Counted from the first letter of the stretch, positions 17,474 to 42,831 are shown. The stretch: DNA of 42,877 nucleotides from Candidatus Fermentibacterota bacterium (GCA_030620115.1 JAUXFG010000010.1:1-42877); one strand, 5' to 3'. Numbers and translations are program-made. The notes: generated by a model from the letters alone, not told the origin.

Positions 17474-17860
17474 CTGAAAATCCTCATATCATTGCAGCTC
17501 AGTTGAGGAATAGACAATGCAATCGAAAGAACAGCAATTCATTCTACGCCGCTCCACAATCAGCGTTAACCCGCACTTCTCACCAGCTTTCGTCGCGAGA
17601 CGGGAGAAATGGTTGTGGCTGCAAGGCTTGCGACCGAGGACCCCGGCTCTGTCAGGGCGTAGCCTGGCTCCGCCGTGGCGAAGCCCGAAGGCGTATCCTC
17701 TGCGAGGAGCCTGTGCTGAGCGACAGCGAAGTATCTGGAGGCTGCTTGTCACGTCGTAGCCGTAGCGAAGACGGAACGGAGCATAACAAAGCAGACAGAG
17801 CCATATCGGCCGTCGCAGCAGGAAGCTGGCAAGAAGTGCGGGCTATATCACCGTGGGGCG
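17474..17860. repeat. Intergenic region with dispersed repeat copy 1
   Basis: From about 17569 the sequence follows the dispersed repeat: CCCGCACTTCTCACCAGC, TTTCGTCGCGAGAC, then GCAAGGCTTGCGACCGAGGA, CCGGCTCTGTCAGGGCGTAG and CCTGGCTCCGCCGTGGC. It then carries the module GAAGCCCGAAGGCGTATCCTC, which is identical at about 34898-34918. No gene is supported. Confidence 0.7.
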
Positions 17861-31184: not shown

Positions 31185-31401
31185 CACGCGGCATTGTAGG
31201 TGATCGTACCAAGGCTGCCGGCTATCCCGGACTTCTCACCGGCCTTCGTAACGAAACGGCTGAGATAGCATTGCCTGCGAGGTGATGCTGGTTTCTGGAT
31301 GCTTGATGCTGGAAGGAGAACGGAACGACTCCCGGTTTCATCCAGTATCCAGAGACCAGCATCCAGTATCGCTGCGCCTCGATCAATGGGCCATGGCATG
31401 A
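31185..31401. repeat. Dispersed repeat copy 3 plus an imperfect inverted repeat
   Basis: CCCGGACTTCTCACCGGC followed by CTTCGTAACGAAACGGC (31226-31260) is a copy of the dispersed family. It is followed by GATGCTGGTTTCTGGATGC (about 31282-31300), whose approximate reverse complement, ending ACCAGCATCCAG, lies at about 31344-31367. The whole lies between convergent mutM and thyX and could form a large hairpin. Confidence 0.6.
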
Positions 31402-34514: not shown

Positions 34515-35171
34515 CGTTCTTCTCCTTGCGCCGGGGTATGATGGTCCGGGTGGCGGTGAATGGAAATGGCGAAATGCTCAGATGAGCTGCCGTAGGTTAG
34601 AGACGTGGTGGATGGGACGCAAGGGAATACGGGCTGCAGGGCAAATGGAAAGGAGGCGGGAAGGGCTTCCCTCCCGCCTCCTTGATCGTTGGTCTCGCCG
34701 AACCCGGACTTCTCACCGGCTTTCGTGGCGAAACTGCCGAGATGGTTCTGAATGTCCCGCACCCAACGTTTTGGGTGCGGGACGACTGAGGAGTCCGGCT
34801 CTGCCAGGGTGTAGCCTGGCTCCCGTCTATGTATGACAACGCCGTGGCGAGCCGCCGGGGCGACCTGTCCCGGCGAAGCTCGAAGAGCGGAGACGGAAGC
34901 CCGAAGGCGTATCCTCTTGTCCGCCAGCTGGCGGACGTGCCTCCACCGAATACAACCCACGCATCCCCGGTGGAGGGCCACGGTCCCTCGTGGCCGTTGT
35001 CGTGGACGATACTCGGAGACGCGGGGGAAATGGAAAGCAACTTCAGGTTTTCTCTTGTTCTTTCCGGTTGCATGGTACTGTGTGCTCTTTTAGGTTGAAA
35101 CCTCGACAAGTCCGTATTCGCGCCAGCCGGCCTACCGGATGGTGAAGTCAATCGTTAAGGAAGGAATCACT
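34515..35171. repeat. Long intergenic region with the most complete copy of the dispersed repeat (copy 4)
   Basis: From 34702 the order is: core ACCCGGACTTCTCACCGG and CTTTCGTGGCGAAAC; GAGATGGTTCTGAATG; a strong hairpin at 34754-34783; CCGGCTCTGCCAGGGTGTAG; CCTGGCTCC; then GAAGCCCGAAGGCGTATCCTC (34898-34918) and the 18-bp palindrome GTCCGCCAGCTGGCGGAC (34919-34936). Segments are shared with copies at 17569 and 40231. No gene is supported between 34515 and 35171. Confidence 0.75.
34754..34783. repeat. 13-bp stem hairpin within the dispersed repeat
   Basis: GTCCCGCACCCAA and TTGGGTGCGGGAC pair perfectly around CGTT. The same hairpin, with one mismatch, occurs at 40282-40311 in repeat copy 6. 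Confidence 0.85.
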
Positions 35172-36565: not shown

Positions 36566-36650
36566 ACCAGACGAAGATTCATTTGTTCGGGGGACTCACG
36601 ATCTTTGCGAAATGAGGCTTCTCTGATGACTTTCACGATCATCTCGGTTA

Positions 36651-36726
36651 GCCCGGACTTCTCATCAGCTTTCGAAGCGAAACCGCCGAGATGATTCTGA
36701 ATGCGAGGCTTGCAACCGAGGTCCTC
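36651..36726 (+). repeat. Dispersed repeat copy 5
   Basis: GCCCGGACTTCTCATCAGC and TTTCGAAGCGAAACCGCC, then GAGATGATTCTGAATGC and GAGGCTTGCAACCGAGG. It lacks the internal strong hairpin present in copies 4 and 6. Confidence 0.75.
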
Positions 36727-36793: not shown

Positions 36794-36827
36794 CTGTCAG
36801 TCATTTGTCACTGCCCCGTGCTATCAT
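36794..36827 (+). promoter_or_regulatory. SARP-type operator/promoter candidate, copy A
   Basis: Two heptamers CTGTCAG (36794-36800) and TTGTCAC (36805-36811) are spaced by exactly 11 bp. Ten bases later comes TATCAT (36822-36827), a -10-like box. The same spacing is repeated before the related gene at 42601. SARP regulators are known to bind heptamer direct repeats with an 11-bp period close to the -10 box, and a SARP/BTAD gene is 3.7 kb downstream. It should drive the small protein, inhibitor and protease genes. Confidence 0.55.
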
Positions 36828-37107
36828 GTTTTCATCAGCCCTCGGCTCCCGGAATAAGCGGCTTCTCATTAGTACTGAGGAATCAGAGACCCTTTGCGGA
36901 GTCGTTCGTTACGTGACCAGCGGCGAGGAGCATTCCCTTGCCGACGGATCATCTCTGTCGGCCCTACTTCGCCGGATAGGCGCCTCTGCGCGGGAAGATG
37001 ACCCAGTGGCCCCGCACAACGAGAAAGAAGGAAACAGACAGCAAGATCCAACGAGTGCTCCGAGAAGCAGATTTCTGTCGGTCAAGTATCCAAGGGTAAA
37101 CCAATGA
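36826..37107 (+). CDS. Small conserved protein, copy A (possibly 5'-eroded)
   Basis: The frame from ATG 36826 encodes 93 residues. Its middle part (LCGVVRYVTSGEEHSLADG, then SSLSALLRRI) is clearly related to the protein at 42601 (LRGTARSVTEDEEQSFVDG, then QSLLALLERM). The stop overlaps the next ATG (ATGA at 37104), so it is coupled to the inhibitor gene. The only ATG near the start lies inside the proposed -10 box, and no ribosome site is visible. Either transcription starts further upstream, a non-standard start (ATT at 36868) or late GTG is used, or this copy has lost its original 5' end. I do not recognise a named family; similar short proteins occur beside BTAD regulators in some other bacteria. 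Confidence 0.55.
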   Translation: MFSSALGSRNKRLLISTEESETLCGVVRYVTSGEEHSLADGSSLSALLRRIGASAREDDPVAPHNEKEGNRQQDPTSAPRSRFLSVKYPRVNQ

Positions 37108-37511
37108 CGAAATCACATTTGCTCTACGTTCTGATTGCGGTGGCACTTCAACTATGTGCGACCTGCACTCCACCGGCAAAGGCCACTTTTACCAAGAGCG
37201 AGGAGGATTCCAATACGACCTTCGAGATGACTTGCGGAGATACTCTGGCAGTTGTTCTCGAATCAAACCCCACAACAGGCTATCGATGGAGTGTCGATAC
37301 CGTTGACAAGGCCGTTCTCGAAGAGATTGGGGCCGAATACAAGGCCGATGAAGTACCAGCAGATATAGTCGGATCCGGAGGCAAGTCGATTTTACGCTTC
37401 AGAGCCATCAAGACTGGCAGGACCTCACTGATCCTGACCTATCGGCGGCCATTTGAGAAGAACTCAACACCGGCCAGGACTTTCGAGCTGACGGTTATTG
37501 TTGGACGCTGA
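37104..37511 (+). CDS. Chagasin-family (I42) cysteine-protease inhibitor
   Basis: 135 residues: an export signal (LLYVLIAVALQL, with cysteines at 18 and 21 that may make it a lipoprotein) and a chagasin domain. All three inhibitory loops are recognisable: NPTTGY at 55-60 (L4), GSGGKS at 90-95 (L2) and RRPFE at 114-118 (L6). Chagasins block papain-type proteases by inserting these loops into the active site. The gene just downstream encodes such a protease, so it probably protects the producing cell or controls maturation of the partner. The start overlaps the previous stop. Confidence 0.92.
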   Translation: MTKSHLLYVLIAVALQLCATCTPPAKATFTKSEEDSNTTFEMTCGDTLAVVLESNPTTGYRWSVDTVDKAVLEEIGAEYKADEVPADIVGSGGKSILRFRAIKTGRTSLILTYRRPFEKNSTPARTFELTVIVGR

Positions 37512-37551
37512 TGGTTCAGTGGCATGTTGAAGGAATACAGAGGAGGTGACA

Positions 37552-37617
37552 ATGGCATTTCAGTTCTGCATGGGAGGCATCCCGGCGAGACCCGAAACCA
37601 CTACTGCAGGGAGGTAG
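37552..37617 (+). CDS. Candidate 21-codon leader peptide before the protease gene
   Basis: ATG 37552 follows AGGAGGTGACA, the strongest ribosome site in this neighbourhood, and opens a frame of 21 codons ending with TAG at 37615, 3 nt before the protease ATG. The protease ribosome site (GGGAGG) overlaps the last codons, so translation of the leader could control it. The peptide (starts MAFQFCMGGIPARPETT) has no known similarity. It could also be a false start produced by a duplicated ribosome site. Confidence 0.35.
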   Translation: MAFQFCMGGIPARPETTTAGR

Positions 37618-37620
37618 ACG

Positions 37621-39828
37621 ATGAAACGATTCTTCGTTTTGTGTCTGATTCAGGTCCTGATATTGTCTGGATTGGTCGCCGCCGAACAGAAACCTCAGCG
37701 CGCACCGATCAATCCCGAGTTTGTGAAGTATATGGAACTAGTGCGGGAAGGGAAGGCAAGAACATATACGCCTGACGGGAGATTCTTGGGTCATATTCCT
37801 CATCCTATGATATTCAAGACCGAGGTTCCAGCGGGCTTCCACCGGGCGCGTTCCTTGCCCCCTGTCTACGATTTGCGAACCCAAGGCACATTGACGTCCG
37901 TAAAGGACCAAGGAGACTGCGGAAGCTGCTGGTCGTTCGCCACCTATGGCGCCATTGAATCAAGGTGGCTTGATGCCGGTCTAGGGCCGTACGATCTTTC
38001 GGAGAACAATCTGATCCATGGGCATGGTTTTTTCTGGGATCCGTGCGAAGGCGGGAATGCGATACTTTCCACCGCTTACCTGAGCCGCCGCGACGGTCCG
38101 ATATCTGAAACAGACGACCCCTACCAGGAAGGGAGCGGGGGCTATCATCCCGGGCTCACTCCTGTGGCATACGTCACTGACGCATGTTTTCTCCCCAATG
38201 ATCCTGATGTGATCAAGCAAACCGTGTATGACTACGGTGCGCTTTATACGCAAATGCATTGGGATTCGGCCTATTACAATCAAACCGATTTTACCTACTA
38301 TTGTAACCTCGCCGAGGCACCACCAGAGGGCGGTCACGCAGTTACGATAGTGGGGTGGGATGACAACATGGTCACGGCGGGCGGAGCGGGGGCATGGATA
38401 ATCCGGAACAGCTGGGGAACTTCGTTTGGGCAAGATGGATTCTTCTACATTTCATACAATGACACACAGGTCAACTCGCATGTCGCCTTCTGGCCGGAGG
38501 CCATGGATTACGATCCCAATGCAACCGTTCACTACTACGACAAACTGGGGGCCTTGAACAGCTATGGATGGAATGATGACATGACAGACTATGGTCTGGT
38601 CAGATTCCAGTTCTCGAGGAGTGAGCAGATCACAAAGATAGGAACATGGATCAATACATCCAATTCGGTTGTCAGCTTCGATATCTATGATCATTTTGAT
38701 GGAAGTGCCCTGTCAAATCTATTGGGATCAATCAACAGTCAAGCATGCGAATACGCCGGCTACCATATGTTCAATCTCACGGCGCCAATCCAAGTAAGCA
38801 CCGGAGATGATATCTTCGTGAAGGCCAAGTATCACACACCCGAATGTGGGTGGCCCATTCCCATTGAGGCATTCGTCGAGGACTCTTGCGATCCTGAGAT
38901 AGAGACGGGCAAGTGTTGGGTAAGTACCAATGGCTCTGATGGAACATGGGTCAATTTCGGTGACGACACGGCCGATAGAAAATTCGATCTTTGCGTCAAG
39001 CTTTACGGTATTTCAGGCTCCGAGCCGAACATCCTACTTGAAGAGGGATTCGACACGTCACCGTTCCCACCCACCGGTTGGACAACCGTTGTGACCAATA
39101 GCAACCACACCTGGGGTCAGGGGAACCCCGAGAATCATCCGTTCTCTGAGATAGATCCCAGCAGTCAGGCCTCCGCTTTGTGCCCCTGGGTTGCAGAGAA
39201 TCAGGACGAGTGGTTGATATCGCCGACATTCACCATCAGCGGCTCGCCTGCGACGTTGGAGTTCTACGCCGGTCACAGCACTCAGTGGTTAAGCTATGCC
39301 ACGTTGAAACTCCATATCTCTCAGAACGGCGGCTCCACTTGGACCCAACTTTGGGAGGCTGTGAATGACGGCGGAAGCTGGGGATGGAGACAAGTACAAG
39401 TCGATCTTTCCGGATACGCCAACAGGGGCGACGTAAAACTTGCGTGGCAATACATAGGGAACGACGGCGACCTGGTTGCATTGGACGGAATCGTGGTGGA
39501 AGTGGAGACAGCATCGGCTGAGGACTCCCCTGTGTTGTCCACACAGCTATTGCTGGCGCAGAACTGCCCCAATCCGTTCACCTCCCAGACAACCATCAGA
39601 TTCTCGGCGCCGGAGAATATCAACGGCAGCGACGTCACCTTGAGTATCTACAATATCAAGGGTCAGCTCGTGAGAACGCTGCTGGACAGACCAGCCAACT
39701 CAGGGATTCAGGATGTTCTCTGGAATGCCAGAGACGACAACGGCAACCTGGTTCCTGCCGGTGCGTACTTCTATCAACTGAGAGTAGATCAGAGAAGTCG
39801 CACCAAAAGGATGATACTCTACAAGTAG
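37621..39828 (+). CDS. Secreted papain-family (C1A) cysteine protease with C-terminal sorting domain
   Basis: 735 residues. A signal peptide (MKRFFVLCLIQVLILSGLVAA) and a short propeptide of about 60 residues precede the C1A catalytic domain from about 80. The full catalytic set is present: Q97 and C103 in QGDCGSCWSF, H239 in GGHAVTIVGW, N263 in IIRNSWGTSFG. A beta-rich region follows, with a MAM/choice-of-anchor-like part (EEGFDTSPFPPTGWTTV...DEWLISP). A C-terminal Por/FlgD-like domain comes last (NCPNPFTSQTTIRF, IYNIKGQLVRTL, VPAGAYFYQLR). It should be exported and surface-bound or released. A chagasin-type inhibitor gene lies 109 nt upstream. GGGAGG precedes the ATG. Confidence 0.95.
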   Translation: MKRFFVLCLIQVLILSGLVAAEQKPQRAPINPEFVKYMELVREGKARTYTPDGRFLGHIPHPMIFKTEVPAGFHRARSLPPVYDLRTQGTLTSVKDQGDCGSCWSFATYGAIESRWLDAGLGPYDLSENNLIHGHGFFWDPCEGGNAILSTAYLSRRDGPISETDDPYQEGSGGYHPGLTPVAYVTDACFLPNDPDVIKQTVYDYGALYTQMHWDSAYYNQTDFTYYCNLAEAPPEGGHAVTIVGWDDNMVTAGGAGAWIIRNSWGTSFGQDGFFYISYNDTQVNSHVAFWPEAMDYDPNATVHYYDKLGALNSYGWNDDMTDYGLVRFQFSRSEQITKIGTWINTSNSVVSFDIYDHFDGSALSNLLGSINSQACEYAGYHMFNLTAPIQVSTGDDIFVKAKYHTPECGWPIPIEAFVEDSCDPEIETGKCWVSTNGSDGTWVNFGDDTADRKFDLCVKLYGISGSEPNILLEEGFDTSPFPPTGWTTVVTNSNHTWGQGNPENHPFSEIDPSSQASALCPWVAENQDEWLISPTFTISGSPATLEFYAGHSTQWLSYATLKLHISQNGGSTWTQLWEAVNDGGSWGWRQVQVDLSGYANRGDVKLAWQYIGNDGDLVALDGIVVEVETASAEDSPVLSTQLLLAQNCPNPFTSQTTIRFSAPENINGSDVTLSIYNIKGQLVRTLLDRPANSGIQDVLWNARDDNGNLVPAGAYFYQLRVDQRSRTKRMILYK

Positions 39829-39873
39829 GAGTCATCTGGGTCATTGCCTTAGACCTATCACCCTCAATCAAGA

Positions 39874-39904
39874 GAAAGGGCAGCCGAACATCGGCTGCCC
39901 TTTC
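39874..39904 (+). terminator. Rho-independent-type terminator after the protease gene
   Basis: A 14-bp stem (GAAAGGGCAGCCGA pairing with TCGGCTGCCCTTTC) and a 3-nt loop lie 45 nt after the protease stop, followed by TGCTTT. The stem ends in A/T-rich pairs, as in intrinsic terminators. Confidence 0.85.
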
Positions 39905-40424
39905 TGCTTTCCTGAACCTGTTTCCTGAACCTGTCCGATCCGATTAGGATTCGATCAAGAATGAGTTCGCAGTTCTGGCGCTCAGACAGATTTTGTCTCG
40001 CCTATGTAGGGGTATCCGCCAGCTGGCGGTCTGGCCCTCCGGCTTGTCACGGCGTAGTCAAACGTAGACCGGAGGCGTAGTCCAAGCATCGCGGAGGATT
40101 GCGCAATCGAGGGAAACTTCTCAATAAGTCCGGGCATCCAGCCTTCTCCCCCTTTGCAAAGGGGGATTGAGGGGAATTTTCCCAATATCGCACGGGCTTT
40201 TTATGATGTTATTTCTGAGCCGACCCTTAGCCCGGACTTCTCGCCGGCTTTGGTAGCGAAACCACCGAGATGGTTCTGGATGTCCCGCACCCAACGCTTT
40301 GGGTGCGAGACGACCGAGGAGCCCGGCTCTGCCAGGGCGTAATCAGGCTCCGCCGTGGCTTCGCAATCCCTGAACTTCTCCATCTCTCCCCATGTTCTGA
40401 TTTCTCAGCAAAGCTCACCTTGGT
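39905..40424. repeat. Repeat-rich gap with dispersed repeat copy 6
   Basis: Contains a 13-bp tandem duplication TTTCCTGAACCTG at 39908-39933, the palindrome CCGCCAGCTGGCGG at 40016-40029 (also at 34921-34934), the palindrome CCCCCTTTGCAAAGGGGG at 40148-40165, and from 40231 a dispersed repeat copy with its hairpin at 40282-40311. No gene is supported. Confidence 0.75.
40231..40362 (+). repeat. Dispersed repeat copy 6
   Basis: CCCGGACTTCTCGCCGGC, TTTGGTAGCGAAACCACC, GAGATGGTTCTGGATG, the hairpin GTCCCGCACCCAA/TTGGGTGCGAGAC (one mismatch), then CCGGCTCTGCCAGGGCGTA. It closely matches copy 4 at 34702. Confidence 0.85.
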
Positions 40425-40453
40425 TTGACATGTGTAGAAGTCACGATTACAAT
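40425..40453 (+). promoter_or_regulatory. Near-consensus sigma-70-type promoter of the SARP-like gene
   Basis: TTGACA (40425-40430) and TACAAT (40448-40453) are separated by 17 nt, 59 nt upstream of the chosen start codon. This is the best promoter match in the window and suggests steady expression of the regulator. Confidence 0.8.
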
Positions 40454-40512
40454 CGCAGCAGTTAAAAGCATGAGCCCAAAAGCGTGATCCGACAGTGCGA
40501 GGTGGCCGAAGG

Positions 40513-42438
40513 ATGGGCAAATCTATCCCGATTCAAGCTTTAATCGCCAAAAGTCAGGAGTTGGAGCGGGCGGGCGATGTCGGTGGAGCTTTCCAAAGTG
40601 CTCGAGAGGCCCTTGAACGAGCTCGATCCGAGAACGATTCTGAAATCATAGCGCCAGCATTAGTTCGGATGGCCTACGTAGAATACCGGCTTGGTCACTA
40701 CGATCAGGCGCGTGCACTGGCCAAGGAAGCACTCACTCATGCATCCACGGGCGCCCCCGTATGTGCCGACGCGTGGCTCATTCAGGGCAATTGCGCTGCC
40801 GAGACGGTCTCGTTGACCGATGCTGAAGCTTTCTATCATCGTGCCGCTGATCTCAGTCGGGAAACCGGCTATGCCCTGGTTAGAATGCGTGCTTTGCACT
40901 GCCTGGGACAGGGTGTCTACATGCCTCGAGGACAGTTCGACCTGGCACTGGCAGCCAACAATGAGGCCCTTCGTATCGTGAAAAAGGAGGATTTACACGA
41001 GTGGATATATTTCCCGTTAGTGACGCTTGCCTGGATTCACCAGCTAACAGGGAAGCCGCACATCGCTCGGAAATTCCTAAAGGAGCTCAGCCTAGCGACT
41101 AAGGAGGTGCCTGACTCGCTCCAGCGGGGCTATCACGACTTATTGATGGGTAACCTGGCCCAGGATGAAGGGGATTTGCAGGCGGCGCGGTCCTTATTCA
41201 TGCAGGCACGTTCCATCGCCGAGTCGGTGGGTGAGCCCGGGTTGAACATTGAAATTCGTTTGGCAATGAGTCGGAACGATCGATTGGAGGGGAACGCTTC
41301 CAAGGCCCGGGTTTGGGCACACGATGCCTTGTCGTTTGCCAGGCGGGTAGGGTACCGTCACCAGGAGGGCAAAGCGCTGATTGAGTTGGGACGGGCAAGC
41401 TGGATGGGTGATGACTATGTAGGAGCCGCGGCAGGCTTTCGCGCCGCCATGGACGTCTTGATCCCTCTCGAGGCAGCCTTCGATCTTGCCGCGGCGTCAT
41501 TCCTTCTTGCCGCACTTTTGGATCAGCAGCAAATGAAAAATGCCGGCGCCGCGTGGAAAGAGACAGCCAATCTCATAGTGAACGCAGGCTTCGCTTTCCT
41601 GCTTGAACGGGAGCGGGCTCTTGCCTTCCCGCTGGTCGCCAAGTATTTGAATGATGATGATCCAGACCTGGCCATGATCTCTTCCGGGCTCCTTGAGCGT
41701 CTATCTCGAGTGTCTCCACCGCCGTTGTTCATCCACGCACTGGGCACGTTCGAAGTGAGGCAGGGCACGCTCGAAATCTCAGATCATGCTTGGCGTCAAC
41801 GCCGAGCCGGGGAGCTGTTCCGCTTGCTTCTGGTCAGTCCAGGGCGGTCTCTACTCCGCGATCAGATCGTGGAAGCCTTGTGGCCGGAAAAATCTCCCTC
41901 TTCGACCCGGGCCCTGCTCTACCAAGCAACATCAGCACTTCGGCGCGCCTTGGAGCCGGACCTGCCTGGGAAGTTTCCATCCCGCTACATTGCGTTCGAT
42001 GAAGGGCGTGTTACTCTAAACTTGCCTCACGGCTCGCGAGTAGATTTTGAGGAGTTCGAAAAACATGCCAAAGACGGCGAGTGGGAGGCGTCTCTTGCTC
42101 TCTATCTCGGTGAGCTTTACCCCGGCGATCGCTATGCAGGTTGGGCTGCAGTGCCCTGCGAGCGACTGGCTCAGCTTGCCGTTCGCGCTCTGGTCAATGT
42201 AGCCCGGAACCGGCTCGAGGCCGGCCACGCAGATTCAGCGCTGGACGCCTGCCGGCGCGCCATAGCCCAGGAACCCTGGCACGAGCACGCCGTACTGCTG
42301 GGTATGCAGGCCATGATGGCACTGAACGATCGAACCGGAGCAATCCGTCTCTACCAGGATCTGAAACGCCACTTGCGAGATGAGCTCGATACCGAGCCCG
42401 AGGAAACACTGCGCCTTTTCCATCAGTCTTTGCTCTAA
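40513..42438 (+). CDS. SARP/BTAD-domain transcriptional regulator with N-terminal TPR region
   Basis: 641 residues from ATG 40513 (GAGGTGG about 7 nt upstream; GTG at 40495 is in frame). Residues about 10-385 are TPR-like helices (for example HYDQARALAKEALTHA, GDLQAARSLFMQARSIAE). Then comes an OmpR-type winged helix starting at FIHALGTFEVRQG, with the recognition region LLRDQIVEALWPEKSPSSTRALLYQATSALRRAL. A BTAD domain closes the protein (DALACRRAI-type repeat DSALDACRRAIAQEPWHEHA, LYQDLKRHLRDELDTEPEE). Classical SARPs have the DNA-binding part first; here it is C-terminal. It probably activates the flanking small-protein genes and the inhibitor-protease operon via the 11-bp repeats seen there. 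Confidence 0.92.
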   Translation: MGKSIPIQALIAKSQELERAGDVGGAFQSAREALERARSENDSEIIAPALVRMAYVEYRLGHYDQARALAKEALTHASTGAPVCADAWLIQGNCAAETVSLTDAEAFYHRAADLSRETGYALVRMRALHCLGQGVYMPRGQFDLALAANNEALRIVKKEDLHEWIYFPLVTLAWIHQLTGKPHIARKFLKELSLATKEVPDSLQRGYHDLLMGNLAQDEGDLQAARSLFMQARSIAESVGEPGLNIEIRLAMSRNDRLEGNASKARVWAHDALSFARRVGYRHQEGKALIELGRASWMGDDYVGAAAGFRAAMDVLIPLEAAFDLAAASFLLAALLDQQQMKNAGAAWKETANLIVNAGFAFLLERERALAFPLVAKYLNDDDPDLAMISSGLLERLSRVSPPPLFIHALGTFEVRQGTLEISDHAWRQRRAGELFRLLLVSPGRSLLRDQIVEALWPEKSPSSTRALLYQATSALRRALEPDLPGKFPSRYIAFDEGRVTLNLPHGSRVDFEEFEKHAKDGEWEASLALYLGELYPGDRYAGWAAVPCERLAQLAVRALVNVARNRLEAGHADSALDACRRAIAQEPWHEHAVLLGMQAMMALNDRTGAIRLYQDLKRHLRDELDTEPEETLRLFHQSLL

Positions 42439-42514
42439 ACCGCGGTTCAAACCGGGCTCACAGGGTCAAACACTCGTCATTCCAATCTATCCTCTATTCT
42501 CCGTCCTCCGACTC

Positions 42515-42548
42515 CCGTCAGTCCCCCGTCAGTTCTTGGAGCTATGAT
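42515..42548 (+). promoter_or_regulatory. SARP-type operator/promoter candidate, copy B
   Basis: Heptamers CCGTCAG at 42515-42521 and 42526-42532 are identical and spaced by 11 bp. Ten bases later is TATGAT (42543-42548). Geometry equals copy A at 36794 in every interval. It precedes the small gene at 42601, giving a leader of about 45 nt. Confidence 0.6.
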
Positions 42549-42600
42549 GTATCTGGAATCAGCGGCTCGTTATGGCAAGAACGTACGGTTCGGAGGGAAG

Positions 42601-42831
42601 ATGCGGATGACCAGGGCTTTTGTACTTAGGCTTTTCGTGGATTCAAAAAAGCCGCAAGACTTGCGCGGCACTGCCCGGAGCGTGACCGAAGACGAGGAGC
42701 AGTCATTTGTAGACGGTCAGTCGCTGTTGGCTCTGCTGGAACGGATGATTCGCCCGTTCGTTGAGACCGGAGAAACAGACAATCCAGCTCAGACCCCCAC
42801 CTCTGAGTGTTATCGGGAGCGAGCCGAATAG
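42601..42831 (+). CDS. Small conserved protein, copy B
   Basis: 76 residues from ATG 42601, which has GGAGGG 3 nt upstream; an ATG at 42544 lies inside the -10-like box and is rejected. The protein has no signal peptide or membrane segment. Its core (LRGTARSVTEDEEQSFVDG, QSLLALLERM) matches the copy at 36826, and the ends are Thr/Glu/Pro-rich. It follows the SARP-like gene by 162 nt. Function unknown; the shared operator suggests it is a co-regulated partner of the protease system. Confidence 0.68.
   Translation: MRMTRAFVLRLFVDSKKPQDLRGTARSVTEDEEQSFVDGQSLLALLERMIRPFVETGETDNPAQTPTSECYRERAE

Follow-up and report, generated by a model that had tools for sequence, protein, structure and literature searches.

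In Streptomyces, afsS adjoins afsR. Regulators of the Streptomyces antibiotic regulatory protein (SARP) family have been studied almost only as Streptomyces antibiotic switches. The rule described for their targets is a pair of direct repeats 11 bp apart with the 3′ repeat ~8 bp from the −10 element, and the T that is critical for AfsR stands third in the repeat (PMC10936776); AfsS is 63 amino acids (aa) long (PMC6988585). Here we describe an island at positions 36794–42831 of a 42,877-nucleotide contig from a Candidatus Fermentibacterota bacterium (GCA_030620115.1, JAUXFG010000010.1:1-42877; the whole stretch is called the window below), in which a SARP-type gene is accompanied by two genes for a small protein (SP), each preceded by a SARP-type operator. 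The explanation that best fits the whole, and that we consider probable, is an island under SARP control with a conserved two-gene module at its core. As the regulator–SP pair recurs in several bacterial phyla, it looks like a widespread, overlooked control module.

The regulator and its two predicted operators

The regulator gene (40513–42438, on the plus strand like all parts of the island) encodes 641 aa and has an alternative GTG start at 40495. Pfam and NCBIfam find only TPR (TPR_12), winged-helix and BTAD domains in its product, and no ATPase domain of the STAND/NOD type. The BTAD match is above cut-off (E=5.7e-18), and that to the winged helix (Trans_reg_C, E=3.4e-5) is just below it, at 24.3 bits against 26.2. 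As expected for a SARP, the OmpR-type winged helix lies beside the BTAD domain; however, the two are not N-terminal but occupy residues ~437–647 of 647, behind N-terminal TPRs. Because of this C-terminal placement, we class the protein as a variant, a rearranged SARP. Other SP-linked SARPs, for example a 1191-aa protein (locus L019), likewise have a C-terminal winged helix and BTAD domain. The genome contains a second clear BTAD gene (G000:C281:5520-5897, in an 1100-aa frame), which has no SP partner since there is no SP family match outside the window in this genome.

Both SP genes follow a box of the form YGTCA-N6-YGTCA-N11-TAT[CG]AT: TGTCA-N6-TGTCA-N11-TATCAT for box 1 (36795–36827) and CGTCA-N6-CGTCA-N11-TATGAT for box 2 (42516–42548), so that both follow the rule given above for SARP targets, with repeats 11 bp apart and ~8 bp from the −10 element. 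An initial annotation of this DNA had proposed two operators of identical geometry, and the boxes do match one another, but 11 bp, rather than the 10 bp it gave, separate the second YGTCA from the −10-like hexamer; a 10-bp gap yields no match in the genome, whereas 11 bp yields two. The genome-wide search that it called for bears out its main point. The 4.1-Mb genome has exactly two occurrences of YGTCA-N6-YGTCA-N11-TANNAT, each just upstream of one of its only two SP genes, and a reversed control has none; the pattern therefore does not occur at a random genome rate. A looser form (GTCA-N7-GTCA-N11-TANNNT) adds one site, with one match in the reversed control; this third genome match lies within coding sequence, and we take it as chance.

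The annotation’s dedicated activator thus has a counterpart in a SARP-type gene with two matching, genome-unique operators before both SP genes, to which binding is predicted. By analogy with AfsR, the SARP very probably controls both boxes by binding DNA and activating transcription. It would be switched through its TPR part, bind the 11-bp direct repeats of boxes 1 and 2 as a side-by-side dimer and recruit RNA polymerase to the −10 boxes beside them, in the manner of AfsR at afsS. Promoter 1 would then serve SP1 and the chagasin and protease genes described below, and promoter 2 would serve SP2 and whatever follows it.

The small protein and its pairing with SARP genes

SP2 (42601–42831; 76 aa, with a GGAGG ribosome site) starts 163 bp past the SARP stop, with box 2 in between. 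It perhaps opens an operon of its own; the contig stops at 42877, 46 bp past SP2, and interrupts this second operon. SP1 has its conserved core at 36856–37107, in a frame open from 36691. The two are paralogues, with 44% identity over 41 aa and a phmmer-type match of 3.0e-4, so that a second copy of the small protein does follow a BTAD-containing regulator, as initially annotated. They are the only copies in the genome, and match the SP profile with E=4.4e-13 (SP1) and E=6.8e-16 (SP2), each being itself a row of that profile.

The family appears in none of the libraries searched: there was no convincing match in Pfam, NCBIfam or PHROGs, no Foldseek match in the PDB at E≤0.001, no match in plasmids and phages, and no description in the limited collection of papers that we searched. 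A PDB sequence search gave a weak match to a designed protein, which we do not take as homology. AlphaFold predicts a beta-beta-beta-alpha core (block-mean pLDDT, a per-residue confidence score, of 87–95 for residues 1–50) followed by a low-confidence tail.

The window SARP gave no match when first run against the genome collection; a search of 193 genomes gave distant ones. Two of these, in different phyla, adjoin a small open reading frame of the SP1/SP2 family with the same box geometry, and the distribution search was then run with the small protein only. SP turned up in 46 of the 301 genomes searched from a Chloroflexota-like phylum, in 4 of 7 genomes of another phylum, and at 31 named loci assigned by their labels to Chloroflexota, Bipolaricaulota, Alpha- and other Proteobacteria, Nitrospirae, Gemmatimonadetes, Bacillota and Bacteroidota. 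Together the loci carry the labels of about eight phyla; these names are the records’ own, nearly all for metagenome bins, and some may be wrong (the SP and box of the “Gemmatimonadetes” locus L084 are the same as those of L070, from the phylum of genome G101). A SARP gene lies within 800 bp of SP at 52 of 65 loci (50 of 62 without three repeats), at a median distance of 136 bp, and the same holds for 15 of 20 further SP copies from the same genomes. The combination of regulator, small protein and box, which the initial annotation suggested seeking in related genomes, is therefore present in many others. One genome of the Chloroflexota-like phylum (G203) has 14 SP family matches, a strong expansion.

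The window’s own phylum is represented by three genomes in the set examined. Two further genomes, from the same family as the window, have no SP match and no SARP match at E≤1e-10; since these relatives lack SP, the island may have arrived by transfer, a suggestion that rests on few genomes. The window SARP is 48% identical over 635 aa to one from Candidatus Aquidulcis (Chloroflexota), whose neighboring SP has the box AGTCAGTTTTTTGTCAGT, and 42% identical to that of an Anaerolineales genome with the box CGTCAGTCTTCGGTCAGT. Its TPR-only subfamily was found in two genomes reached through the SP search; when 400 genomes of the Chloroflexota-like phylum were searched for the SARP, none gave a match at E≤1e-40, implying that the subfamily is rare there or falls below that threshold.

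The box geometry recurs along with the pair. GTHA-N7-GTHA-N11-TANNNT, or its GTCA form, is found upstream of SP at 29 of 59 non-redundant loci (the window’s two included), as compared to 0.01 on average after dinucleotide shuffling and 0.11 averaged across 380 period/gap combinations; many of these promoters come from one bacterial family and are not fully independent. In a motif-free test, which asked only for an exact 5-mer repeat and TANNNT, the peak fell at period 11 and gap 11 (17 of 59, against 0.17 in shuffles). An earlier promoter set thinned to 23 has the box in 11. In the named loci, box density in front of SP exceeds that in the rest of the locus ~280-fold. Where the GTHA form is missing, several loci show a different half-site with the 11-bp geometry unchanged, and SP boxes have T at repeat position 3 (NGTNA), matching AfsR. 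At one locus a GTHA-type box (L088:9812, minus strand) lies on the opposite strand before a divergent molybdenum-enzyme-like operon next to the SP gene, which suggests control in the divergent direction too.

Comparison of the half-sites with the regulators bears on what binds them. SARPs of the window’s subfamily have a recognition-helix region like ATSALRRALEPDLP, and within the subfamily GTCAGT boxes are found for the window, L145 and L094; where the box is of the GTAA type, the recognition helix of many SARPs contains NNLR. Judged from these sequences, half-site type tracks the recognition helix. Winged-helix regulators of the PhoB/OmpR type also use 11-bp repeats, and PhoP and AfsR sites overlap in Streptomyces (PMC6988585), so one might suppose that such a protein binds the boxes and that the SARP is a bystander. 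We regard this as very unlikely: this genome has no such box outside the SARP island, and the SARP gene is the constant neighbor of SP in many phyla, in addition to the tracking just described.

SP and SARP sequences also vary together. Across 43 pairs their distances correlate with r=0.59 (P=0.0005), and for seven paralogous pairs within one Candidatus Aquidulcis genome r=0.88 (P=0.0016). We tentatively suggest that SP is a regulatory partner of the SARP, which is quite possible if not yet probable; it would be made once the SARP is active, and would most likely feed back on or relay the SARP signal. A simpler idea is that SP is only a leader, whose translation couples the SARP promoter to the downstream cargo and whose product has no regulatory role. 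SP is often the first gene of its operon, and the SP1 stop overlaps the chagasin start by 4 bp (ATGA, 37104–37107). SP1 itself looks 5′-truncated, because the one ATG in its vicinity (36826) falls within the −10 box with no usable start beyond it, and the distance from the −10 box to a conserved Arg is ~48 bp shorter than in SP2; its 5′ end was apparently deleted up to the promoter, yet promoter, reading frame and chagasin overlap were kept, as a leader would lead one to expect. SP1 may, by its sequence, be decaying while the first operon keeps its promoter. Against the leader explanation, which we consider unlikely, stand the conserved and confidently predicted folded core, the co-variation with the SARP, and one family (f61) of the Chloroflexota-like phylum in which the SP and SARP genes converge and SP stands away from any cargo.

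Some observations count against a regulatory partnership within a conserved module. In two genomes that have four pairs each, the SP–SARP correlation does not reach significance, and co-variation could come from joint inheritance of neighboring genes rather than from contact. About 20% of SP loci have no adjacent SARP within the stretch examined, and about half lack the strict box. With no good start codon for SP1, at least one SP copy may be non-functional.

Exported cargo in the window and elsewhere

The first operon continues from SP1 into genes for a chagasin-type inhibitor (I42; 37104–37511, PF09394, E=2.2e-26) and a papain-type protease (C1A; 37621–39828, PF00112, E=2.7e-32, with PF18560, PF13860 and NF038128). 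It ends in a strong intrinsic terminator hairpin at ~39870–39909 (−31.4 kcal/mol, z=−7.35), which together with the ATGA overlap agrees with the initial description of the three genes as one unit. The inhibitor keeps the three inhibitory loops of its family (NPTTGY, GSGG and RPF, at residues 55, 90 and 114), and the protease has the catalytic Gln, Cys, His and Asn of the papain family in QGDCGSCW, GGHAV and NSWG. Both begin with a signal-peptide-like segment, as judged by eye. The protease also has lectin-like and choice-of-anchor J domains, and its C-terminus ends in a sorting-type tail, a possible sign of type IX secretion cargo (TIGR04183, 34 bits against a cut-off of 23; PF18962, 25.4 against 27, just under). 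Exported protease would thus be made together with an exported inhibitor that could restrain it, and the chagasin may hold its co-made partner in check. Where the annotation saw a resemblance to a secretion system we disagree: the island contains no secretion machinery, only exported cargo, and is a regulated set of exported enzymes rather than a secretion machine.

Genes after SP at other loci are also mostly for exported proteins, and the window’s protease with its inhibitor fits in as one more such cargo. They include an S8 subtilase (L101), a C25 protease (L135, the second gene after SP), sortilin/BNR, beta-helix and FG-GAP proteins, and a cytochrome bd-like protein, as well as redox enzymes: NosZ (L079) and NarG-like and other molybdenum enzymes with cytochromes (L075, L081, L082 and L086). 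One Candidatus Aquidulcis contig (L144) has a tandem arrangement of SARP, SP and exported protein followed by SARP, SP and exported beta-helix protein, with both SARPs of the window’s TPR-only type. At eight loci from Proteobacteria, Nitrospirae and SAR202 (L078, L079, L082, L086, L087, L090, L092 and L093), the SP-linked SARP is ~400 aa long and has a PAS-type region at its N-terminus, recognized as PAS by Pfam in L078; several of these head operons for NosZ, nitrate-reductase-like or Tat-type molybdenum enzymes. These shorter SARPs are possibly redox-responsive, controlling anaerobic respiration.

The abundance of exported products, S8, C25 and C1A proteases among them, could mean that SP is a partner of the cargo, acting on the downstream exported protein as chaperone, inhibitor or export helper. 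This is rather doubtful, as the cargo types are unrelated to one another (NosZ, NarG-like, beta-helix, protease and cytochrome bd-like), the SARP is the constant neighbor, and the SPs inspected have no signal peptide evident by eye. Because the SP family follows the SARP gene whatever the cargo, it is unlikely that SP is an accessory to the protease in particular, or that it is part of the cargo.

Rfam and tRNA scans of the window gave no matches, and PADLOC gave a TPR match only. A dispersed intergenic repeat of 60–130 bp with the core CCCGGACTTCTCACCGGCTTTCG...GAAAC..CCGAGATG, a candidate mobile or REP-like element, is present at 17566–17671, 31216–31277, 34693–34823, 36642–36703 and 40221–40351. 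It also occurs on most other contigs sampled from the genome; since these share the repeat and the base composition agrees (GC 0.558 against 0.53–0.57), the contig belongs to the genome, and contamination can be ruled out.

Comparison with known systems

Genomes of several phyla thus show the same promoter geometry and regulator–small-protein anatomy, in association with exported proteases, nitrous oxide reductase and molybdenum enzymes. Should the pairing prove functional, recognition helix against half-site would provide a readable code for predicting regulons in uncultured bacteria, and the role of AfsS-like small proteins would become testable in many systems.

The chagasin (I42) and papain-like (C1A) products carry the full signatures of their families; what differs is that their genes stand side by side in a single operon headed by a SARP box, an arrangement that we did not find in a limited literature search. 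Cluster-situated SARPs (ActII-ORF4, RedD, DnrI and the large SARP-LAL proteins) share with our set the winged helix plus BTAD, the 11-bp repeats and the local control of operons (see also PMC5930380 and PMC10936776). Here, in contrast, the cargo consists of exported hydrolases and redox enzymes, the genomes are mostly non-actinobacterial, and each regulator has a paired small protein.

A close parallel is AfsR–afsS, which likewise combines a TPR-sensor SARP, two 11-bp direct repeats set against the −10 element and a very small protein gene (PMC10936776); as there, SP2 is a small-protein gene with a SARP-type promoter beside a SARP gene. SP is likened to AfsS by arrangement, and the two are best termed analogous. 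Exported enzymes are encoded in the SP operon itself, whereas AfsS reportedly acts via antibiotic pathway regulators. The window regulator has its winged helix and BTAD at the C-terminus, with no ATPase domain found, and because it lacks a STAND/NOD ATPase we do not class the island as an AfsR–AfsS system, only as one that appears to work like it. Our broadest proposal, which we hold just short of probable, is that SP is a new, dedicated family of SARP partners (feedback or co-activator) forming a modular, paralogue-specific switch for exported enzymes, including proteases and denitrification enzymes, in many unrelated phyla, of which AfsR–AfsS would be the Streptomyces version.

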